From positions 1 to 60,187 of the forward strand of contig PCBK01000147.1 of the NCBI GenBank assembly GCA_002731275.1: a stretch of DNA of 60,187 nt. The letters are read 5' to 3'. Positions 18,254-33,031 of this stretch are shown here, in pieces. How positions within the stretch are numbered: position 1 is the stretch's first letter; each line of letters begins with the position of its first letter. The DNA is from Deltaproteobacteria bacterium. Its GTDB lineage: Bacteria > Myxococcota_C > UBA6777. Position numbers and translations under genes: made by a program. The notes beneath the pieces are model-generated. The model had not been told where the DNA came from. It saw only the letters and a program-made list of their open reading frames with translations, and did not search any database.

Positions 18254-19978
18254 TCACCAGCGGTACTGTTCGGGGATCAGACGTTCGATGTTTTTGTAGC
18301 GAGCTTCTTGGAGATTGTAGTCAGGGCTGTACAGTTGAAACAGCATCAGGTAGGCGAGGGCGAGAGAGGTGAGGAGGAGTGTGATCGCACGACGTTTGTA
18401 TCTTCCGATAAAACCTGCAAATGCAATATACGCACACAATAAAGAGAGCGCGACAAAGTAGATAGACATCGCCCAACCCGGCGGGAGGTGGAAGAGGTTG
18501 CTCGGGGCGAGACCTCGTTTGAGCATTGGGATGAGGATGTCGTTAAAGGGAAAGTTCGAGCTCTCCGGTAGATGAGGGAACAAGACAGCCGCCAGCGCGT
18601 AAAAAATGATGGACCAGATCGCCGTAAAGGACAAAAACAGGGTCAGCCGGTTGCCGTGTCGCCTGTACAACTGGTCGGCAGCCCAGATCGCCGCGAGGAA
18701 GCAGAAGGGCAGTAAGTTCGCGATGTAACGGGGACCTACGGTCCATCCTCCACGTGGGTTGTGCATCGTCGTGTTGTAAAACGACCACCACGAGATCAAG
18801 CCAAACAGCCAAAGCCCCCAAAAGCGCATCCCTCTCCGACGCAGCAACATCACGATCGCTGGAACGACGAGGAGCAAAAAAGGCGTCCAAAACAACAACC
18901 CATATGAGGGCAGAATGTACGCGTGTAGGAGGTGACTCCATGTTGGGCTTCGAAAACCCATCACGCCCTGTGCGTTGGCCGCGCGAAAGGGGGCGTAAAG
19001 TAGATGGCTATAAGGCGTCGTAAAGTACGAACCAAAGGCGACCTTGTGATACCACATCACGGCCCCAACGGGGATCGTGCTGCCCAAGAAGATCACCCAC
19101 AGATGCCACCGAACACCCCAAAAGAAGAAAAACGAACGCCAGCCTGTTGGCAGAGGCTTTTGTATGTATTTTTCTGGCAGTGGAGGTCGGATCCACAGCC
19201 CCACAATCGCGAGGAAGACACCTGTGAAGACTGCGGAGTATTCGACTGCGATCGCCAAGCCCAAACAGATCCCCACCAAAAAGGACAAGGAGATCCGTTT
19301 GAAGATCCCACGAGGAGGCGCGATCAATAACAAAAAGACCAACCACAACATCGAGTTCGAGAAGGAGTGACTGCTCACAGTGATCGCATATGGATACATC
19401 ATCGAGCCGAACATGTACGTGAAGTACCCGACGACGATGACATAGCGGCTTCGACAGATCGCGAGCAAGAAGGCGTAAAAGAACAACGACGCAAACCACG
19501 TCGGCAAGATCGTCCCAAATAAACGCGCGAAGTAAGTCGCCTCGAACAGGCTCGGTGGTCCCCGTGAGATAGTCTTTTTGTACAGACCGTAGACTGGTCC
19601 AAGCATCAACGCCATCCCTGGTGATTTTCCAGGGTAGGTGAAGACCGCCGGTGCATTCGGACCATCTTGAGGCCCTTTCTTGCGACCCGCGAGGTCTGTG
19701 ACGCGACACCACCAGCGCGAGCGGATCTTGTTGATATGAAGCTCTCCGTACAATCCAATCGACGCCATCCCCAAGACACGCGTCTTCTCATTGGGGGAGT
19801 CGAGCGAGGCCGATGAGCCTGGAAGATCTTCGTAGAAAGGGATCAACCACAGGAGAAAAAACAGACTCGCGAGCGCGACAAATACGTGATGACGCCATTG
19901 TAACGGACGTGGGTGGACGTCTTCTGGATCGTAGAGCGAGTCCGCTGTGTAAAGAGAGGAGGGCGCTTGCTTTGTCAT
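18254..19978 (-). CDS. polytopic membrane protein resembling PMT/ArnT-type glycosyltransferases
   Basis: 574 residues with about a dozen hydrophobic helices spread from residue 32 to 545. After the first helix comes an exported loop with SASLDSPNEKTRV and an acidic/aromatic stretch, the position where GT-C enzymes keep their catalytic Asp. Later loops are short. This layout fits dolichyl/undecaprenyl-phosphate-sugar transferases (GT39/ArnT-like), but sequence identity to a named family is not evident, so the assignment is tentative. It begins within the last bases of the preceding gene (4-bp overlap ATGA), so the two are translationally coupled. Confidence 0.65.
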   Translation of the reverse strand: MTKQAPSSLYTADSLYDPEDVHPRPLQWRHHVFVALASLFFLLWLIPFYEDLPGSSASLDSPNEKTRVLGMASIGLYGELHINKIRSRWWCRVTDLAGRKKGPQDGPNAPAVFTYPGKSPGMALMLGPVYGLYKKTISRGPPSLFEATYFARLFGTILPTWFASLFFYAFLLAICRSRYVIVVGYFTYMFGSMMYPYAITVSSHSFSNSMLWLVFLLLIAPPRGIFKRISLSFLVGICLGLAIAVEYSAVFTGVFLAIVGLWIRPPLPEKYIQKPLPTGWRSFFFFWGVRWHLWVIFLGSTIPVGAVMWYHKVAFGSYFTTPYSHLLYAPFRAANAQGVMGFRSPTWSHLLHAYILPSYGLLFWTPFLLLVVPAIVMLLRRRGMRFWGLWLFGLISWWSFYNTTMHNPRGGWTVGPRYIANLLPFCFLAAIWAADQLYRRHGNRLTLFLSFTAIWSIIFYALAAVLFPHLPESSNFPFNDILIPMLKRGLAPSNLFHLPPGWAMSIYFVALSLLCAYIAFAGFIGRYKRRAITLLLTSLALAYLMLFQLYSPDYNLQEARYKNIERLIPEQYRW

Positions 19979-21201
19979 GGTCTCCCCTCCGTTCGTGGAT
20001 GAGGTCTACTGGTCGGGCGCTTGTGTGGACGTTTTTTTACCGACTTGGTCGTGGATTTGTCTCGTTTGTTTGGCTTGGTCGTTGGTTTGTGTTGCTTGGC
20101 CTTCTTGGTCGTTGGTTTGGTCGAAGGTTTTCGTCGCTTGTTGGGCCTTGCTGTTCGTGTGGAGGGGTGGCCTCTTTTCACGATGATTGGACGCGAGGTC
20201 GGACGCGCTTGGCTGCGTCTTTTGGGGGAGACCTTGAGACGAGGGTATCTGTCGACCAACTTTTTGATGCGTTTTTGTAGGGCTCGTTCGAGGGCTTTTT
20301 TGGGCTGGTAGGCGACGACTTGGACACAGAAGGCTTTCGCGCCGTTGTTTTTTGTCCAGATTCTCATCGAGATCCCGCCACGAGAGAGGGCGACATCGCC
20401 TCCTTTCCAGTATTGGCTGTGCCAGAACGAATGGTGTTCGATCCAACGATCCATGAGCGTCTTGTGAAGTGTGGGGACAAAGCGCCGTGGAGTGCGCGTC
20501 TTCGATTTGATTTTGTCGGGCCATTGGCGCAGTTGAAGCTGCACACGCATGGGGGTGTATGAACCAACACGTTTGCTGAATCCATACCCAATCCGCACAC
20601 CATCTTGCATCGGGACAGGAGGGAAGTGGACCTCTGTCCAGCCGTTGCTTACGGGGTGGATACGAACACACTTGTATCGATCGCCGCCAGAGGGGAAGTC
20701 CGGTAGAGGACCGGCCCATCGCCAACGATGACCAAATCGGCATCGACTTCCGCGCCACCGGCATGGTTTTCCATTCATCAAGTAGGTGGCTTTGCGAGCG
20801 TTGGCGTTGAGATGTCGTTGGACGCCATTGTGAGGGTGACATCGTCTGACGCGAAAGAGTCGACGCGCACCAAACAGCCACTGTTTGCATTGCCAGCGCG
20901 GTGTGAGCTGTCCCTTGAGGCCTGTACGGACGTGTTCGATCAACCAGAAGGGACGTTGACCTTCGAGGACTGTAGAGGGGAGTCCTTTCTCTGGGATCAT
21001 CACCTGTTGGGGGAGTGGAGAGAGCCATCTGGCTGATTCATCACTGAAGACAGCTTCTCCTTGTCGATGTTGAAAGGAGACGTACATGTGGGCCTGGAGG
21101 AATGCAAACCATTCTGAACACCATAGGACGGCGACAATACCAATGATGAGGCATGTCATCATGACCGTGTACGTGCGTTTTGAGAAGTCTTTGACGCTCA
21201 C
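19975..21201 (-). CDS. membrane-anchored protein with long basic Thr/Lys/Pro repeat tail
   Basis: 408 residues. One transmembrane helix near residues 14-31 (VMMTCLIIGIVAVLWC) is followed by an exported region with several Cys, Trp and Arg (about 100-310), unlike any family recognised. From about 325 the chain becomes repetitive and basic, with units such as KPTTK, TTKPNKRDK and RPTSRP, and is surely disordered. It overlaps the following polytopic protein gene by 4 bp, so both are likely made together and may work on the same envelope substrate. The tail could bind acidic glycans or peptidoglycan; that is inference from charge only. Confidence 0.7.
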   Translation of the reverse strand: MSVKDFSKRTYTVMMTCLIIGIVAVLWCSEWFAFLQAHMYVSFQHRQGEAVFSDESARWLSPLPQQVMIPEKGLPSTVLEGQRPFWLIEHVRTGLKGQLTPRWQCKQWLFGARRLFRVRRCHPHNGVQRHLNANARKATYLMNGKPCRWRGSRCRFGHRWRWAGPLPDFPSGGDRYKCVRIHPVSNGWTEVHFPPVPMQDGVRIGYGFSKRVGSYTPMRVQLQLRQWPDKIKSKTRTPRRFVPTLHKTLMDRWIEHHSFWHSQYWKGGDVALSRGGISMRIWTKNNGAKAFCVQVVAYQPKKALERALQKRIKKLVDRYPRLKVSPKRRSQARPTSRPIIVKRGHPSTRTARPNKRRKPSTKPTTKKAKQHKPTTKPNKRDKSTTKSVKKRPHKRPTSRPHPRTEGRP

Positions 21202-24268: not shown

Positions 24269-25867
24269 TCAGTGATGGGGAAGATGTTTTCGTCTCCATC
24301 CGATGAGAAGAGCGAACATCAACAAGAAGGGGAGAGGGGAGAGGTTGCCGTCGTGACTTTCGCAACCACAACCTGTCTTCTGTGCACAAAATCCAAACTC
24401 ACAAAATTGCCCTGAGGGACAGTCCGCGTCGGCCTTGCAAGATTGGAGCTGTCCTGCGTCTGGGACTTCCTGTTGAATCGGCCAGCATGCGCTTTGATTG
24501 ATACACTTGTAACCAGAGGGGCACTCGGCTTTGGTCTGGCACAACTGGGAACACCTGTATTCTCCGTTGAGTCGGACACAAAGGTTGCTTTCGCAGTCTT
24601 CTGGTTTGGTGCAGCCTTGTGTACCGAAGGGGAGCTTGGCGCAGGGAAGATCGCCATCTTTACAGTCGTCGTCTTTTCCGTTGCCGCAGATCTCTTGTTG
24701 GTTGGGATGGACAGAGGGGTCGGCGTCATTGCAGTCTTGGATACCTGAGCAATTTTGTCCAAAGCCAAAGCCATCCTTGTCGTTGTCTGTACACTGTTGC
24801 GGGACGTTGCAGTTCTCGTCGGATTGACCGTTGCAGTTGTCGTCTTTTGCGTTGCCACAGATCTCCTGCGCGGTGGGTTTTGTTTCACCCTGACAGGAGC
24901 CCCACTTTCCACCACTACAGATCTGTGTTCCATCGTGACAGCTGCCCTGACTGCGGGTCGCAGGGGGACCTGTGTAACAGGGCTGTGTGTCACCATCTTT
25001 GCAGTCACCTGTCGGAGAGCAGCCTTCATCTTTTTGTCCATTGCAGTCGTCATCCTGACCATTTCCACAGGTCTCTTTGGAGGCGGGTTTGGTTTCTCCT
25101 GCGCAGGGGCCCCATGTTCCGACACTACACGTTTGCTTGCCACCTTTGCAGATCCCGACGCCGTTGGTGTTGGCGGGACCTGTGTAGCAATTTCTTGAGA
25201 GGCCTTCGTCGATCTGTCCATTGCAGTTATTGTCGAGATTGTCACAGATCTCGTTGCTGTTGTTGGGTTTGGGTTTGCAGATCAGTTTGCCGCCCTGGCA
25301 TGTGGTGGTTCCAAATTGGCAGGGCGCGCTGATACCTGTTCCACAACTTCCGCCGGCGTCGGGGTTGCCTTCATCGACGTCGCCGTCGCAGTCGTTGTCT
25401 TTGCCATCGCACTTTTCAGCAGAGGGTTTGGTTTCGCCCTGGCAGGAGCCCCATTTGCCGTTGCTACAAGACTGCCTTCCGTCTTTACAGACACCTTTAC
25501 TGCGGGTGTTGGCGGCTCCTGTGTAACAGGCTTTTGTCTGTCCAGCGCTGCACTCCGGTGGCGGACCTCCGCAATTGCTACAGACTGTATAGTATCCAGA
25601 GACCCAGCCCGTTTTACCGCCGTAAGAGATTTTGTACCAGGTTGTGTTCCCCTTGATATTTTGTCCTGACGTTGTTGTGCTGAGGACTTTCAGACAGGCA
25701 CCTTCAGGCACGCCGCCGAGTACAGAGCTGCTCGTGTTTGCGCTAGAGCGGATATTCAGATTTGAGCCGCCGAGGTTGGCTGTTTTGACATAGGTGCAGG
25801 CTGCCTGTGCCACGTGTGGCAATCCGACACAGAGCAGAAGTGACAAGAGAAATGACCTGATTAACAT
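24269..25867 (-). CDS. exported SH3b + MopE-repeat protein with MYXO-CTERM signal
   Basis: 532 residues. Signal peptide to about AQA; a bacterial SH3 domain at about 25-95 (LNIRSSANTSSSVLGGV, TTWYKISYGGKTGWVSG in parts); then repeated modules combining a 'C.TG...T.G.C..G..TC..G.WG.C' segment with a CDGKDNDCDGDVDE-type acidic loop, the putative metal-binding motif of MopE-like proteins. The C-terminus has GCGCES, a hydrophobic helix and Arg/Lys/His, a MYXO-CTERM signal that should send it to the cell surface. AAGGTG lies 6 nt before the ATG, only 9 bp after the previous gene: last gene of a three-gene tandem family. Confidence 0.87.
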   Translation of the reverse strand: MLIRSFLLSLLLCVGLPHVAQAACTYVKTANLGGSNLNIRSSANTSSSVLGGVPEGACLKVLSTTTSGQNIKGNTTWYKISYGGKTGWVSGYYTVCSNCGGPPPECSAGQTKACYTGAANTRSKGVCKDGRQSCSNGKWGSCQGETKPSAEKCDGKDNDCDGDVDEGNPDAGGSCGTGISAPCQFGTTTCQGGKLICKPKPNNSNEICDNLDNNCNGQIDEGLSRNCYTGPANTNGVGICKGGKQTCSVGTWGPCAGETKPASKETCGNGQDDDCNGQKDEGCSPTGDCKDGDTQPCYTGPPATRSQGSCHDGTQICSGGKWGSCQGETKPTAQEICGNAKDDNCNGQSDENCNVPQQCTDNDKDGFGFGQNCSGIQDCNDADPSVHPNQQEICGNGKDDDCKDGDLPCAKLPFGTQGCTKPEDCESNLCVRLNGEYRCSQLCQTKAECPSGYKCINQSACWPIQQEVPDAGQLQSCKADADCPSGQFCEFGFCAQKTGCGCESHDGNLSPLPFLLMFALLIGWRRKHLPHH

Positions 25868-25876
25868 GCTTTCACC

Positions 25877-27124
25877 TTACGATACGTTCGGATGTTTTGT
25901 TTCTCGGACGCTACGTTGCCGGAGGTATAGGAACAGGCCCAACACCAAAAACAGGCTGGCAGGCACGGGGGCATCAGGTTGGCTTTGGCAACCACAGCCT
26001 TTTTCGGTGCACACGCCAGCTTCACAGAAGGCCCCTCTTGGGCAATCTCCATCTATTTTACAGCTACTACTGTCGGGGACTTTGTCTTTTGGCCAACAGG
26101 CTGTTCCTCCAACGCAGGTGAAGTCGGTCGCACAGTCTGCGTCAGTTTGGCAGGCGCGTGAGCAGAGCGATTCTTCGCCCAAACGAGCGCAAACGTTGGT
26201 CGCACAATCATCAGGTTGTGAACAAGCTTCGCCTTCCTGTTTCTTTTGCCCTGTACCACTACAGCCTTCGTCTGTTTGTCCATTGCAGTTGTCATCTTGG
26301 TTGTTGCCACAAGTCTCTTGGGAGGCTGGGGGGACTTCTCCTGCGCAGGTGCTCCACTTACCGGCGCTACAGGTCTGTGTTCCACCTTTACAGGTGCCGA
26401 TCCCGTTGGTGTTGGGAGGGCCTGTGTAGCAACCTCTTGAGAGGCCTTCATCGATCTGTCCATCGCAGTTGTTGTCGACGTTGTCGCAAATTTCGTTGTT
26501 TCCTGGTTGGCTGGCTTCGCAGACGAGTTTGCCGCCTTTGCACGTATTGGTGCCTTGTCCACATGCTCCGCCTGTACCTGCGTTACAACTGCTGCCGCCG
26601 CCGGGGTTGCCTTCATCTACATTGCCGTCACAGTTGTCATCAAGGCCATTGCATGACTCTGTTGTGGGGATGACTTCACCTGTGCATGCTCCCCATTTGC
26701 CACCACTACATGACTGTGAACCACTTTTACAAGCGCCTTTGTCTTTTGTCGCGTCCGGACCGGAGTAACAGGTGCGTGTTTGGCCATCTGTGCAGTCTGA
26801 AGTCGAACCTCCACATGTACTACAATCTGCGTAGTATCCGGAAATCCAGCCTGTGTTGTTGTTGTAGGTGATTTTGTACCAAGTGGTATTCCCTTTGACG
26901 TCCTGTCCTGACGTGGTCTTGTCGAGGACTTTCAGGCAGGTGCCATCGGGCACTGTTCCAACGGGGGATTGGTTTGTGTTGGAGGAGGGGCGAATGTTGA
27001 GATTACCACCACCCAAACGAGCGAGTTTGATGTAGTCACAAGCCTGGGCATGTACGTCGCCTGAAGGCCACAAAGAACATGTCATACACAACAAAAAAGA
27101 GAGCACAAATACATTCTTAAGCAT
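25877..27124 (-). CDS. exported SH3b + MopE-repeat protein with MYXO-CTERM signal (paralog 2)
   Basis: 415 residues, a shorter paralog of its neighbour with the same order: signal peptide, SH3b domain (LNIRPSSNTNQSP, TTWYKITYNNNTGW), MopE-type Cys/Asp modules (NGLDDNCDGNVDEG, DNVDNNCDGQIDEG), a Cys-rich segment and a GCGCQS + hydrophobic helix + Arg ending. The SH3b domain may bind peptidoglycan; the acidic loops are thought to bind divalent metal. It lies between the other two paralogs (36 bp and 9 bp), so all three are probably one transcript. Confidence 0.86.
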   Translation of the reverse strand: MLKNVFVLSFLLCMTCSLWPSGDVHAQACDYIKLARLGGGNLNIRPSSNTNQSPVGTVPDGTCLKVLDKTTSGQDVKGNTTWYKITYNNNTGWISGYYADCSTCGGSTSDCTDGQTRTCYSGPDATKDKGACKSGSQSCSGGKWGACTGEVIPTTESCNGLDDNCDGNVDEGNPGGGSSCNAGTGGACGQGTNTCKGGKLVCEASQPGNNEICDNVDNNCDGQIDEGLSRGCYTGPPNTNGIGTCKGGTQTCSAGKWSTCAGEVPPASQETCGNNQDDNCNGQTDEGCSGTGQKKQEGEACSQPDDCATNVCARLGEESLCSRACQTDADCATDFTCVGGTACWPKDKVPDSSSCKIDGDCPRGAFCEAGVCTEKGCGCQSQPDAPVPASLFLVLGLFLYLRQRSVRETKHPNVS

Positions 27125-27160
27125 GGGAGAGAGTGACTCCTCGTTGGGGGAAGCGATACG

Positions 27161-29314
27161 TTACTTGCGATTGGTGGAATGGGGAGTCCTTCGGAGTTGA
27201 CGCCACATAAAGAGTAGACAACCCAAAAAGAGCATGACAGGGAGTCCTGGATCGGGTTGCTCGGACTGGCTTGAGCATCCACAACCACCGCGCACCTGGA
27301 AGCATTTTTCGCCACTCGCGCTGTCACAGTTTGACTGTGTTGTGCCCGAAGAAGGCCAGCAGGCCTGTTCACCAACACATTCAAATCCTGTGGGACACTC
27401 TGCCGACAGCTTGCAAGGTTGTGAACATCTGTTGACACCGCCTTTGTTGGCGCAGAAGTTAGTTACACAATCACTTGCCTGTGTACATCCGGCCTGACCG
27501 ACTTGTAACTTGGTCGTCGTGTTGGAGCAGGGGAGGTCGCCGTCCTTACAATCTTCGTCTTTTCCGTTGCCACAGACTTCTTCTTTGTTGGGGTGCATAT
27601 TGGGATCGTTGTCGTTACAATCTTGAAGACCGATACAACTGTTCCCTACACCGTAGCCATCTTTGTCATTGTCGACACAGGTGTCGCTGCCACTGCAATT
27701 TTCGTCTGTTTGTCCATCGCAGTTGTCATCTTGTGCGTTACCACAGAGCTCTTGTGAGGCTGGGAGGACTTGGTTTTGGCACGCGCTCCAAGTGTTGTTT
27801 TGGCAGGTTTCGAGGCCCTGTTTGCATGTGCCTACACCTTGTGTTCCGGCGGGACCTGTGTAACAGGGGCGGGTCTCGCCAGCTGTACAAGAGCCGGAAG
27901 TGTTGCAACCTTCATCGACATTCCCATCACAGTTATCGTCGAGCTGGTTATTGCAGAGCTCTTGGTTTGTGGGTTTGACTTCACCGTTACAACTTCCCCA
28001 CTCTCCGGCGTTACAAGTCTGTGTGCCACCTTTACAAGAGCCGATCCCGTTGGTGTTGGGGGGGCCTGTATAGCAGTCTCTTGAGAGACCTTCATCGATC
28101 TGCCCATCGCAGTTGTTGTCGACGTTGTCACACAGTTCAGTGCCACCGGGTTGGTTGGCTTCACAGACGATCTTCCCGCCTTTACATTGCTTGGTGCCCT
28201 GTCCACATGGTCCGCCAGTTCCAGTGGTACAGCTTCCGCCAGCGTCGGGGTTGCCTTCGTCTACACTGCCGTCACAGTCGTTGTCTTTGCCGTCACACTT
28301 TTCGGCGGAGGGTTTGGTGTCATTCTGACATGCGCCCCATTTGCCGTTGTTGCAGGAGCGTTTTCCGTCTTTGCAAACACCTTTATTGCGGGTGTTGGCG
28401 GCCCCTGTGTAGCAGGCTTTTGTTTGTCCTGCGTTACATTCTGCGGGAGGACCACACGATGAACAGTCCGCGTAGTAGGCGGAGATCCAACCTGTCGCGC
28501 CGTTGTGGTTGATCTTGTACCAAGTGGTGGTGCCCGAGATGTTTTGTCCTGACGTCGTTTTGGAGAGGACTTTGAGACAGACGCCATCACCAACTGTCCC
28601 AACAGGGGATTGGTTGGTATTGGAAGAGGGGCGGATGTTGAGCTGTCCGCCTTGTAGACGAGCTGTTTTGATGTAGTCACAATTGGTGGGGGGAGGGGGG
28701 TTGGTTGAGCCACCACTTTGGCAGGTTGTCGATGGGTATCCTTTGTAGCTACCTTTGCTGACCCAGTCGTTGTGGACGAAGGGGCAGCGATGTGTGCTGT
28801 AACTCGACGCTGTGTTGACCTGGAAGTGCAGGTGAGGTCCTGTCGAGCAACCACTCGAACCTACTTTTCCGAGACGGTCGCCACATTTGACGTTTTGCCC
28901 CACTTTGACCTGCACCGTCCCTTTCTTCATGTGGAGGTAGTACGAGTGTTTTCCATCGGAGTGCTGAATCTTTACGTAGTTTCCGTTGCAAGGTGAACAG
29001 CTGCCACTGGTGCAACGATCGGCTTGGCCATCGGAGGCTGAGACGACTTTTCCTGGCGCGGCCGCTGTGATCCAGACGCCAGCGTCCATTTTGGTCCATC
29101 GTCCATAGAGACCGTAGTCGCTACCTGCGTGGTTGTCATATGTGTGAGAGCCTCCGTTCCAGTCGCGCTTTGCGCCGGAGGAACGATTGGTATCGTAGTA
29201 GGCTGTGATCACAGTGTCTTTGGTTGGGAGTGGGTAGGCAAATTTGGTTGCAGCTTCGGCGTGTCCCACAAAGAGACCGCAAAATAGCAGGAAGGCAAAG
29301 AATCTCGCGCTCAT
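27161..29314 (-). CDS. exported M23 metallopeptidase fused to SH3b and MopE repeats, MYXO-CTERM
   Basis: 717 residues from the ATG at 29314, chosen because a normal signal peptide (FFAFLLFCGLFVGHAEA) begins there; an upstream in-frame ATG would add 16 non-signal residues. Residues 25-170 form an M23 (LytM/lysostaphin) domain: His62 and Asp66 in NHAGSD, the YYLHMKKG strand and His161/His163 in HLHF, so the zinc site is complete and a peptidoglycan endopeptidase activity is expected. Then come SH3b (about 215-280), several MopE-type modules and a GCGCSS MYXO-CTERM ending. First gene of the tandem operon; the others seem to be derivatives that lost the peptidase. Confidence 0.9.
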   Translation of the reverse strand: MSARFFAFLLFCGLFVGHAEAATKFAYPLPTKDTVITAYYDTNRSSGAKRDWNGGSHTYDNHAGSDYGLYGRWTKMDAGVWITAAAPGKVVSASDGQADRCTSGSCSPCNGNYVKIQHSDGKHSYYLHMKKGTVQVKVGQNVKCGDRLGKVGSSGCSTGPHLHFQVNTASSYSTHRCPFVHNDWVSKGSYKGYPSTTCQSGGSTNPPPPTNCDYIKTARLQGGQLNIRPSSNTNQSPVGTVGDGVCLKVLSKTTSGQNISGTTTWYKINHNGATGWISAYYADCSSCGPPAECNAGQTKACYTGAANTRNKGVCKDGKRSCNNGKWGACQNDTKPSAEKCDGKDNDCDGSVDEGNPDAGGSCTTGTGGPCGQGTKQCKGGKIVCEANQPGGTELCDNVDNNCDGQIDEGLSRDCYTGPPNTNGIGSCKGGTQTCNAGEWGSCNGEVKPTNQELCNNQLDDNCDGNVDEGCNTSGSCTAGETRPCYTGPAGTQGVGTCKQGLETCQNNTWSACQNQVLPASQELCGNAQDDNCDGQTDENCSGSDTCVDNDKDGYGVGNSCIGLQDCNDNDPNMHPNKEEVCGNGKDEDCKDGDLPCSNTTTKLQVGQAGCTQASDCVTNFCANKGGVNRCSQPCKLSAECPTGFECVGEQACWPSSGTTQSNCDSASGEKCFQVRGGCGCSSQSEQPDPGLPVMLFLGCLLFMWRQLRRTPHSTNRK

Positions 29315-29506
29315 GTTTCCATCCCAACATCTTGTGTGAGAACAGGCAAAAAATTTTTCCATTCAAACAATTAACACAGACATATTACACGTTTCGGACG
29401 CCTTGATCAAGACGTGTTTGATTCTTGAATATGTGAGAAGAGAGTGGGTTTGGAGAGAGAGTCTGGATTGTACGGAGGGATTGTTTGTAGAGGAGCAGAG
29501 GGGATG

Positions 29507-30847
29507 TTAGCGAGCTTCAGGTTTTCTTTCAGCTGGCTTTGTGGGTGCGGCTTTGCGTGCAGCAGGCTTCGCGGGCGCAGCAGCCTTACGCTCAGCGGGG
29601 CGTGCAGCAGGCTTCGCGGGAGCAGCTTTGCGCTCAGCAGGGCGTGCTGCGGGTTTTGCGGGAGCAGCTTTGCGCTCAGCGGGGCGTGCAGCAGGTTTCG
29701 CGGGTGCAGCAGCTTTACGCTCAGCTGGTTTTGCAGCAGGCTTCGCAGGTGCAGCAGGCTTCGCGGGCGCAGCTTTACGCTCAGCAGGTTTTGCAGCGGG
29801 CTTCGCGGGCGCAGCTTTTCTTTCAGCAGGACGTGCAGCAGGCTTCGCAGGTGCAGCAGCTTTGCGCTCAGCGGGGCGTGCAGCAGGCTTCGCGGGCGCA
29901 GCAGCTTTGCGCTCAGCTGGACGTGCAGCGGGTTTTGCGGGAGCAGCTTTTCTTTCAGCAGGACGTGCAGCAGGCTTCGCAGGGGCAGCTTTACGCTCAG
30001 CGGGGCGTGCAGCAGGCTTCGCCGGAGCAGCGGGTTTTGCGGGAGCAGCTTTTCTTTCAGCGGGGCGTGCAGCGGGTTTCGCGGGAGCAGCAGCTTTGCG
30101 CTCAGCGGGGCGTGCAGCGGGCTTCGCAGGTGCAGCAGCTTTGCGCTCAGCAGGGCGTGCAGCGGGTTTTGCGGGTGCTTTTCTGTCTGCAGCTTTGCGC
30201 TCAGCTGGTTTGCGTGCTGCTGGTTTTTTGCCGAGGAGAGCGTCGGTTTTCTTCTTCGCTTCTTCAGCTTTTTTCTTGGTGTCGTCTGCTTGTGTTTTCA
30301 GCTCGTTTGCGTTCTTTTTGGCGTCGCTTGCTTTGGTAATGGATGCTTTTGACTTTGCAGTTGCGGCATCTTTTTTGAGCTTTTCAACGCGTTTTTTGGC
30401 GCTTTCGACGAGGCTACGAACTTCGTTGAGCTGTGTTTGGATGGCGTCGAATTTCGCTTTGTTCGCTTTGGTTTTCTTTGCGCCTTTTACAGCTTTTTCT
30501 ACGTCAGCAGCGAGTTTCAGCGTCTCGGAGGATGAGACGTTGACTTTTTCGAGGACCTTCACGGCTTCGTCAGCCATTTTGTGGATGGCTTTGACTGCGA
30601 GTGCGCGTTCGGGGCCAAAAGTCGCAAAGTACGCGAGTGTCATGCTTGTGAACATGAAGATCGTCGCGAGGACAGCCGTAAGTTTAGCGAGGAAGGGAGC
30701 ACTACCACTACCACCAAACATGGTTTGTGTTGCGCTACCTCCAGTGACAATACCACCGCCTTTTCCGGCCTGTAGTAGGATGGCGACGATCATGATGAAA
30801 CAGGTGATGACATGAACCACTTGAATGAAGTTCGCGAGAAAAGTCAT
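29507..30847 (-). CDS. secG: SecG translocon subunit with ~350-residue coiled-coil and Ala/Lys/Pro repeat extension
   Basis: 446 residues from the ATG at 30847 (GGAGAAGG nearby). The first ~75 residues are SecG: two membrane helices around a GKGGGIVTGGSATQTMFGGSG loop (part), the conserved cytoplasmic segment of this translocon subunit. Known SecG proteins are about 70-120 residues; here a Lys/Ala-rich helical region (about 85-200, likely coiled coil) and then at least 15 units of the type AKPAARPAERKA follow. The tail is basic and disordered, and its topology puts it in the periplasm or cytoplasm depending on SecG orientation. The order pgk-tpiA-secG is widely conserved, which supports the identification. 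The DNA of the tail is highly repetitive. Confidence 0.88.
   Translation of the reverse strand: MTFLANFIQVVHVITCFIMIVAILLQAGKGGGIVTGGSATQTMFGGSGSAPFLAKLTAVLATIFMFTSMTLAYFATFGPERALAVKAIHKMADEAVKVLEKVNVSSSETLKLAADVEKAVKGAKKTKANKAKFDAIQTQLNEVRSLVESAKKRVEKLKKDAATAKSKASITKASDAKKNANELKTQADDTKKKAEEAKKKTDALLGKKPAARKPAERKAADRKAPAKPAARPAERKAAAPAKPAARPAERKAAAPAKPAARPAERKAAPAKPAAPAKPAARPAERKAAPAKPAARPAERKAAPAKPAARPAERKAAAPAKPAARPAERKAAAPAKPAARPAERKAAPAKPAAKPAERKAAPAKPAAPAKPAAKPAERKAAAPAKPAARPAERKAAPAKPAARPAERKAAPAKPAARPAERKAAAPAKPAARKAAPTKPAERKPEAR
29541..30225. repeat. tandem ~42-45-bp repeats within the secG tail
   Basis: Repeated units containing GCTTTGCGCTCAG and GCAGGCTTCGCGGG encode the Ala/Lys/Pro/Glu/Arg tail. 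Units vary by point changes and by 3-bp length differences. Such a tract is prone to slippage or recombination. Confidence 0.85.
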
Positions 30848-30888
30848 GGAGCCTTCTCCGTACACACGATAGGTGAAATGAAATAGAG

Positions 30889-31650
30889 TTATGATTGAAA
30901 ATGGACCAACTGGCGAAATGAGTCGACCTTCAGGGATGCGCCACCGACAAGTGCACCGTCGATATCGTCTTCTTGCATCAACGCGACGACGTTGCTGGGT
31001 TTCACGCTTCCGCCGTACAAAAGGCGAACGCTGTTGGCTGTATCTTGATCCACCAATGTCGCGATTTGTTGTCGCAGAAAGTGATGGACTTCTTGTGCTT
31101 GTGCTGGGGTTGCTGTTTTACCAGTGCCGATGGCCCAGATGGGTTCATAGGCGATGGTGAGGGTTTTGGCTTCCTCGGCGGACAAACCTTCGAGGGCGGC
31201 CTTGAGTTGTGCCTCGACACGAGAGAAGGTCTGACCACCCTCTCGCTCTTCGAGACTCTCGCCAATACAGACGATGGGGAGAACGCCTTCAGCGCGGAGC
31301 GCGTCGCTCTTTTCGCGGATAAATGCGTCACTCTCTTCAAAGTATTGGCGTCGTTCGGAGTGCCCAACGATCGCGTATGTACAGCCCACAGCTTTGAGCA
31401 TCGCAGGAGAAACTTCTCCCGTGTACGCGCCACTTGGTTGGGGATGTACGTTTTGTGCTGACAGCTGGATGGGGCTGTCTGCGATGACCTGTGAGACTGC
31501 GTGTAAAGTCACAGTCGTTGGGGCGATCACGACGTCGACGTCTGGTGTCGAACCGACAGCCTCGACGAGCTCCTTGGCAAACGCTACGGATTCGTCAAGT
31601 GTTTTGTTCATTTTCCAGTTGCCGGCGATCAAAGGTCTTCGTTGGCTCAT
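30889..31650 (-). CDS. tpiA: triosephosphate isomerase
   Basis: 253 residues, full length. It interconverts dihydroxyacetone phosphate and glyceraldehyde 3-phosphate. Signature pieces are GNWKMN (substrate Lys), VGHSERR (catalytic His region), AYEPIWAIGTGK (catalytic Glu and flexible loop) and LLYGGSVKPSN (phosphate-binding). It starts 27 bp after pgk and precedes secG by 41 bp; the three form the common glycolysis/secretion gene string. Confidence 0.97.
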   Translation of the reverse strand: MSQRRPLIAGNWKMNKTLDESVAFAKELVEAVGSTPDVDVVIAPTTVTLHAVSQVIADSPIQLSAQNVHPQPSGAYTGEVSPAMLKAVGCTYAIVGHSERRQYFEESDAFIREKSDALRAEGVLPIVCIGESLEEREGGQTFSRVEAQLKAALEGLSAEEAKTLTIAYEPIWAIGTGKTATPAQAQEVHHFLRQQIATLVDQDTANSVRLLYGGSVKPSNVVALMQEDDIDGALVGGASLKVDSFRQLVHFQS

Positions 31651-31677: not shown

Positions 31678-32907
31678 TTATGCGTCTTCGTGGAGGGCTG
31701 CACGTCGGGCGGCGCGTTGGAACACTGCTTTCAGCGCGGGCAACTCCTTTCCTTCCAAGAAGGAGAGGGAGGCGCCTCCACCTGTCGAGATGTGGCTGAC
31801 TTGTTCGCTGAAGCCAAACTTTTGCACCGCTGCGGCGGAGTCTCCACCACCAACGATTGTGTTGGCATCGGTCTCTGCGAGAGCTTTTGCGATGGCTCTT
31901 GTACCCTCCGCAAAGGATGGCCACTCAAACACACCCATCGGTCCATTCCAGAAGACGCTCTTGGCTTCGGCGATCTCTTTACTGTAGATGCTACGTGTGA
32001 CAGGTCCAATATCGAGACCCATCTCGCCTTCTTCGAAGGTGTCCTCTGTGATACGACAATCCGCGTCTTTTTGGAACGCCTTCGCGACAACGTGGTCAAC
32101 AGGCAAGAGGAATTCCACATTTTGAAGACGAGCGCGTTCGAGCAGTTGCCGCGCGAGCTGGAGTTGTTCGGTCTCTACAAGCGAAGCACCAACATCTTCC
32201 CCTTTTGCCTTCAAGAAGGTGTACGCCATCGCGCCACCAATGAGGATCGTGTCACAACGCTCAAACAGGCTGCTGATCAATTGGATCTTGTCGGAGACTT
32301 TGGCGCCGCCAAGGATCGCAACAAAGGGTTTCTCTGGGTTTGTGTAGAGTTTTCCAAGGATTTCGATCTCTTTTTTGACCAAAAATCCGACGCCACAAGC
32401 GCCCTCCACAAAATCAACCATCCCCGCAGTGGAGGCATGGGCTCTGTGGGCTGTTCCGAATGCGTCGTTGATATAGACATCTGTGTAGGAGGCGAGTTGA
32501 CGACAGAAGCTCTCTTCGTTGCTCTTCTCTGAGGGATCGAAGCGCAAGTTTTCGAGGAGCAGGACATCACCGCTGCGCATATCGTGTACGAGCTTGTTGG
32601 TCGCATCTCTGATGGGGTAGTCGGAGAGAATGACGTCGTGATCGAGCAGCTCCGCGAGTTTTTTCGCGACAGGCTCCAGGCTAAATTTTTTGTCCAGCTT
32701 GCCTTTTGGACGTCCAAGGTGGGAGGCGAGGATGACACGCGCAGAGCGAGCGAGTGCGTAGTTGATCGTCGGTAGCGCCGCACGTAGACGTGTGTCGTCT
32801 GTCACCACGCCGTCTTCAACAGGGGCGTTCAGATCGAGGCGGATAAAGACATTTTTATCGTGGAGATCGAACTGATCGATACTTGGTATCTTTTGCATAT
32901 CTATCAT
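31678..32907 (-). CDS. pgk: phosphoglycerate kinase
   Basis: 409 residues, normal length. It transfers phosphate from 1,3-bisphosphoglycerate to ADP. Typical motifs are VFIRLDLNAPV, ASHLGRPKG, ENLRFDPSE, NDAFGTAHRAHAS, AILGGAKVSDKI, FWNGPMGVFE and VGGGDSAAAV. The ATG at 32907 has GGAG 10 nt upstream; a second ATG three codons later is possible. First gene of pgk-tpiA-secG. Confidence 0.97.
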   Translation of the reverse strand: MIDMQKIPSIDQFDLHDKNVFIRLDLNAPVEDGVVTDDTRLRAALPTINYALARSARVILASHLGRPKGKLDKKFSLEPVAKKLAELLDHDVILSDYPIRDATNKLVHDMRSGDVLLLENLRFDPSEKSNEESFCRQLASYTDVYINDAFGTAHRAHASTAGMVDFVEGACGVGFLVKKEIEILGKLYTNPEKPFVAILGGAKVSDKIQLISSLFERCDTILIGGAMAYTFLKAKGEDVGASLVETEQLQLARQLLERARLQNVEFLLPVDHVVAKAFQKDADCRITEDTFEEGEMGLDIGPVTRSIYSKEIAEAKSVFWNGPMGVFEWPSFAEGTRAIAKALAETDANTIVGGGDSAAAVQKFGFSEQVSHISTGGGASLSFLEGKELPALKAVFQRAARRAALHEDA

Positions 32908-33031
32908 CAAAGAGAGTCTCCAAAGGCAACACCAAAAGGAAGCTCAACTTCCCTTATCAAAAGCCCAAATTGTGTATGACTTTCGATGGTTTTTGGTTTT
33001 CGTATTACACTCGCGTGAAATAGGCCCTAAC

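Follow-up and report, generated by a model that had tools for sequence, protein, structure and literature searches.

A SecG variant with a predicted helical stalk and a long cationic repeat tail in a small one-family bacterial phylum

The locus described here raises the question of whether a 446-aa protein can be a genuine SecG and, if so, what might be served by the long extension that follows its two transmembrane (TM) helices. The window, meaning the whole stretch of 60,187 nucleotides that was analyzed, contains an uninterrupted open reading frame (ORF) at 29507..30865 on the minus strand. Its likely ATG start at 30847 is preceded by a Shine-Dalgarno-like sequence, GGAGAAGG, a good ribosome-binding site. 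The resulting 446-codon secG gene (29507..30847, minus strand) encodes a SecG core, a helical stretch of approximately 130 residues and an Ala/Pro/Lys/Arg repeat tail of 240 residues, the same succession of helical region and repeats that the initial annotation had read from the sequence.

Identity and genomic context of secG

Residues 7 to 74 matched the SecG profile PF03840 over all of its length (positions 1-70 of 70; E = 1.8e-17; 63.6 bits against a cutoff of 29.2), and the NCBIfam secG model TIGR00810 was likewise matched well above its cutoff (E = 1.4e-18; score of 66.7 against 30.9 [30.85]), so the earlier naming of the gene as secG is upheld. This is the single SecG match in the genome, and it adjoins tpiA. 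Using phmmer, the nearest solved relatives by sequence were E. coli SecG chains (E = 2e-8), while a Foldseek comparison of the core with T. thermophilus SecG (5ch4_G) gave a probability of 1.00, a TMt of 0.74 and an rmsd of 3.2, yet an E value of only 0.49. The AlphaFold model shows the two-TM SecG plan, with core helices at residues 2-28 and from 50 to at least 77 and a Gly-rich loop between them. TM helix 1 (residues 2-28; 30764..30844, minus strand) is assigned from the AlphaFold helix and the profile match. The loop (residues 29-49; 30701..30763, minus strand) has a GKGGG...FGG pattern conserved in three genera and is cytosolic in known SecG (PMC8082313). By every test made, the 446-aa protein is the SecG of this organism.

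The genes directly upstream on the same strand are tpiA (triosephosphate isomerase; 30889..31650), which was aligned with the tpiA genes of two other genera (loci L002 and L003), and pgk (phosphoglycerate kinase; 31678..32910), named from its sequence. The pgk-tpiA-secG context described previously is therefore present, and the same order is found at L172 and L173. Downstream of secG, at 27161..29362 on the minus strand, lies a gene for a secreted protein with M23 peptidase, SH3_3 and MopE-motif matches in Pfam, and an apparent counterpart, judged by eye, follows secG in genome G003 (L173:2-2188). This protein belongs to a run of three consecutive secreted proteins (24269-29362) with SH3_3 and MopE copper-binding motifs, one with the M23 peptidase; all three end in GCGC or similar, a hydrophobic stretch and Arg, resembling MYXO-CTERM sorting tails. 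At the ends of the window, a CRISPR-like array (57-1068) consists of 13 copies of an approximately 36-nt repeat, CTCTCCGCCCGGTAAAAAGGGCGGCCCCATTGAAGC, spaced 71 to 93 nt apart with unique spacers, with no cas genes evident in the ORF list of the window, and imperfect direct repeats of 54 to 83 nt cluster near the contig end (59427-60187).

To place the organism, searches with the window genome at the level of family, order, class and phylum were compared, and all returned the same five genomes of one family, with sizes of 6.6 to 10.75 Mb. In the database used, the genome thus belongs to a small one-family phylum and not to Myxococcota, the group in which a search for homologs of this length had been suggested; in two SecGs labelled myxobacterial (L024 and L039), the tail is of ordinary length, at 66 and 71 aa. 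A tpiA scan returned 80 named loci from mixed phyla with best matches 45 to 55% identical, a spread over many phyla that could not place the organism. No relative emerged from a scan of genome contigs in which the SecG core was the query, and a plasmid search gave no match.

The stalk and the repeat tail

AlphaFold, run on an alignment of three sequences, predicted TM1 at residues 2-28, one continuous helix at 50-122, two further helices at 130-167 and 170-205, and a disordered tail. In window coordinates (all minus strand), TM2 (approximately residues 50-77) together with stalk helix A, which continues it to residue 122, spans 30482..30700, stalk helix B spans 30347..30460 (pLDDT of 85 to 94) and stalk helix C spans 30233..30340. 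Starting from the sequence of another genus, that of genome G001, the helices fell at 51-122, 128-168 and 171-210 with pLDDT near 90. The three-helix model is thus obtained from both reference sequences, whose stalks are only 23 to 29% identical, the two runs being built on the same three sequences and so not fully independent. Foldseek searches with the stalk returned generic helical bundles alone, and the best VIA-align score (Z = 12.1), again to unrelated helical bundles, lies within the range of that tool for common helical arrangements and under the Z that it treats as informative for shapes of this kind. The region had been described as a coiled coil; its helical character stands, but it is better called a bundle of three predicted helices that carries on from TM2.

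The disordered tail (29510..30229, minus strand; 240 aa; net charge of +52) is built of the repeat type AKPAARPAERKA, with 13 exact AKPAA[RK]PAERKA units and two partial PAERK units, which makes the earlier count of at least fifteen a fair one; the copy number comes from a 200-contig assembly and could be wrong by several. The tail is nearly devoid of aromatic and large hydrophobic residues. At the DNA level, 12 of the 13 exact units are distinct. Codon differences between units were 296 synonymous against 22 nonsynonymous, a bias far from neutral even though the unit pairs compared are not independent, and 318 of 392 base differences fell at position 3 of the SecG codons. This concentration fixes the SecG reading frame and supports a real, selected coding frame for the tail; the repeat is under constraint at the protein level. 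A 424-aa ORF on the plus strand (29541-30815) was rejected as the gene, because it is the third codon positions of the SecG frame on the minus strand that vary.

SecG proteins of the same three-part architecture occur in two other genera of the family, at 364 and 360 aa and with the order pgk-tpiA-secG kept. Misassembly is thereby ruled out as the source of the fusion and a mis-joined gene or frameshift was rejected, in agreement with the initial annotation; the junction between SecG and stalk sits in nonrepetitive DNA. The repeats of the two other genera, QPAVRPT and PAKREAAPAPARRAA, differ from that of the window, and the tail in G001 is composed of Arg, Gln and Pro, nearly without Lys. Across the three sequences, identity between genera is 45 to 57% in the core and only 23 to 29% in the stalk. 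Architecture and charge, not letters, have therefore been kept, and the extension was retained while the letters of the repeat turned over. The other two of the five family genomes, G002 and G004, lack SecG in their assemblies, and the only tpiA of G004 lies in an unrelated context (groES and others; L171) and appears foreign; neither genome is thus informative on SecG.

To assess how unusual the extension is, the tail after TM2 was measured in 88 SecGs. The tpiA scan of named genomes supplied the majority, and the remainder came from a survey of 193 genomes in which the highest-scoring matches were read, so that a long tail elsewhere could have escaped. The three family SecGs have 366 (window), 283 and 280 aa after the core, with net charges of +66, +33 and +52, respectively, whereas the other 85 have tails of 0 to 109 aa with net charges of -20 to +11; the median over all 88 is 52.5 aa. 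The exceptional length claimed for this protein is thus borne out. Open-frame lengths overstate tails: the longest listed outside the family, 403 aa in G179, holds an actual tail of 45 aa, and one of 310 aa in G176 holds a tail of 58 aa. Ordinary SecG tails are already of low complexity and rich in Ala and Pro. The tail exaggerates this known tendency of SecG ends; what is new is the helical part and the charge, and the 446-aa protein is a new variant of SecG. No earlier description of a SecG extension or tail, or of a large periplasmic domain on SecG, was found in the open-access literature.

These comparisons bear on whether the extension has any specific function. A dispensable Ala/Pro-rich SecG end could have grown by repeat slippage, and the low-complexity tails of ordinary SecGs (median near 52 aa), the change of repeat type between genera and the presence of the repeat on another protein of the same genome would all fit such drift. 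We nevertheless consider it unlikely, as the repeat units diverge almost only at synonymous sites, the positive charge is consistently extreme and the conserved three-helix stalk is not of low complexity.

Membrane side of the tail and a second carrier of the repeat

As the TM1-TM2 loop of SecG is cytosolic (PMC8082313), homology places both termini, including the C-terminal tail, in the periplasm; we infer the same for the tail of the window SecG, whose core carries its positive charges in that loop. An Omp85 marker was present in all five family genomes, making a diderm envelope, and with it a periplasm, likely.

Genome wide, the AKPAARPAERK motif and APAKPA repeat recur in only one other protein, a 676-aa DUF4340 protein (L122:6371-8401) that combines a AKPAARPAERKA tail like that of SecG with a His-rich HHGHDHGHG segment and whose gene adjoins an ABC_transp_aux (GldG-like) gene. 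Since it has just one hydrophobic segment, at the N terminus and flanked by mixed charges, this protein is probably membrane anchored with an extracytoplasmic body. DUF4340 orthologs are present in each of the five family genomes and have Pro/Ala tails with a net charge of +9 to +43 at their ends. The match between a SecG tail and the DUF4340 tail is clear in G000 and holds within the genus for G003 and G004, but SecG-tail tripeptides in G001 had no significant match to the DUF4340 tail of that genome, and a general rule of matching SecG and DUF4340 tails within each genome was rejected. The single APAKPA match (GrpE of G000) and the PAERKA matches (a SecA-like protein of G001; G002:C197) look like chance. 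Given that two unrelated membrane proteins carry the same kind of tail, a common periplasmic ligand would be the simplest explanation.

Several other proteins were noted during these searches. A membrane-anchored 408-aa protein without a Pfam match (19975-21201) has a long Thr/Lys/Pro/Arg tail (net charge of +17 in its best 40-aa stretch), a further case of a membrane protein with a cationic tail. At L124 (G002:C79), an apparent diadenylate cyclase, CdaA/DisA-like by eye, is extended at its C terminus by several hundred disordered residues, which open with a AEKKPAEKKAAEKK stretch. The SecA-like protein at L123 (G001:C139), also recognized by eye, looks shortened or divergent and is possibly a second SecA.

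If SecG were inverted or of unusual topology, the basic tail would be cytoplasmic and could bind ribosomal RNA or DNA at the membrane. In composition it is like a histone H1 tail, its strong basicity suits the positive-inside rule, and there is precedent in the basic tails of some YidC/Oxa1 proteins, which bind ribosomes. Inversion of SecG topology is, moreover, still entertained (PMC6776908). We regard this reading as improbable in view of the homology of the termini, the position of the charges in the core and the absence of any Pfam match to a histone H1-type profile at E<=1, the resemblance being compositional. Nucleic acid binding is unlikely, as the C terminus is periplasmic by homology and the other carrier of the repeat is membrane anchored and probably extracytoplasmic. 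The suggestion that a histone-like tail binds nucleic acid or anionic lipid is therefore narrowed: an anionic envelope component stays plausible, while nucleic acid is unsupported. The stalk-tail SecG also offers a natural test of the disputed inversion model; if the tail is periplasmic, an approximately 366-residue basic domain could hardly flip in each translocation cycle, and inversion would be hard to maintain.

Possible function and comparison with known systems

The reading that we favor, at a probability of roughly one-half, is that the Sec translocon is tethered, through a periplasmic stalk and a disordered cationic arm, to either peptidoglycan or the outer membrane. SecG would be lengthened on its periplasmic side, with TM2 running unbroken into a helix of approximately 45 residues that packs with two more helices to form a stalk of an estimated 6.7 nm (0.15 nm for each of 45 residues). 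From the stalk tip would hang a Pro/Ala repeat arm, disordered and strongly basic; at the 124 to 240 residues seen in the three known cases, it would, if extended, span tens of nanometers and could bridge the distance to peptidoglycan or the outer membrane. Its most likely role would be that of a flexible tether that works by electrostatic attraction and keeps SecYEG near an anionic component (peptidoglycan, lipopolysaccharide or anionic lipid), confining the translocon and exiting proteins to the vicinity of the wall or of sites of outer-membrane assembly. Several points weigh against such a tether. A positive C-terminal tail must be exported against the positive-inside tendency, and the consequences of a tether may be mild, as E. 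coli does not require SecG (PMC8082313). The nearly Lys-free G001 tail with its lack of a significant DUF4340 match, the two family assemblies in which SecG is missing and the mixed charges around the one hydrophobic segment of DUF4340 also count against it. More tentatively, the matching tails of SecG and of the DUF4340 partner of the GldG-like ABC system could form a lineage-wide envelope address module, with both complexes docking on the same periplasmic ligand, which would place protein export and the ABC system at common envelope sites.

Alternatively, the stalk and basic tail might handle substrates at the channel exit, binding unfolded and often acidic preproteins and acting as a chaperone or ratchet against back-sliding in the manner of PpiD/YfgM. 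The tail would begin near the exit on the periplasmic side, AlphaFold predicts the stalk helices with confidence, and translocation-promoting periplasmic partners of SecYEG exist in PpiD/YfgM (PMC9643414). Such a role is doubtful. That an unrelated DUF4340 protein bears the same repeat points to a general envelope ligand and not to nascent chains, and the tail contains hardly any aromatic or bulky hydrophobic residues with which to hold unfolded chains.

Returning to the tether, a stalk and basic arm fixed on SecG in a phylum suggest that the core channel itself can be envelope tethered, as otherwise seen for SecDF/YidC. TonB and TolA pass from an inner-membrane anchor into an extended periplasmic segment, Pro/Lys-rich in TonB and helical in TolA. 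The window SecG would work like them in pairing a membrane anchor with a periplasm-spanning arm, but it has no ExbB/TolQ-type anchor and no C-terminal receptor domain, and no TolA or TonB domain was matched in Pfam at E<=1. A periplasmic function on SecG also has functional parallels at the translocon. PpiD and YfgM similarly provide a periplasmic module at SecYEG but are separate TPR/PPIase-domain proteins and not SecG fusions (PMC9643414). The E. coli holotranslocon contacts BAM through periplasmic domains, a link from translocon to outer membrane that is only proposed for the SecG tail, and that bridge is built by other subunits, SecDF and YidC (PMC7695460). Compared with ordinary SecG, of which the 110-aa E. 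coli protein is an example, the window SecG shares the two TM helices, the Gly-rich loop, the pgk-tpiA-secG operon and a low-complexity C-terminal tail, and it differs in having 366 aa after the core, a three-helix stalk and a charge of +66.
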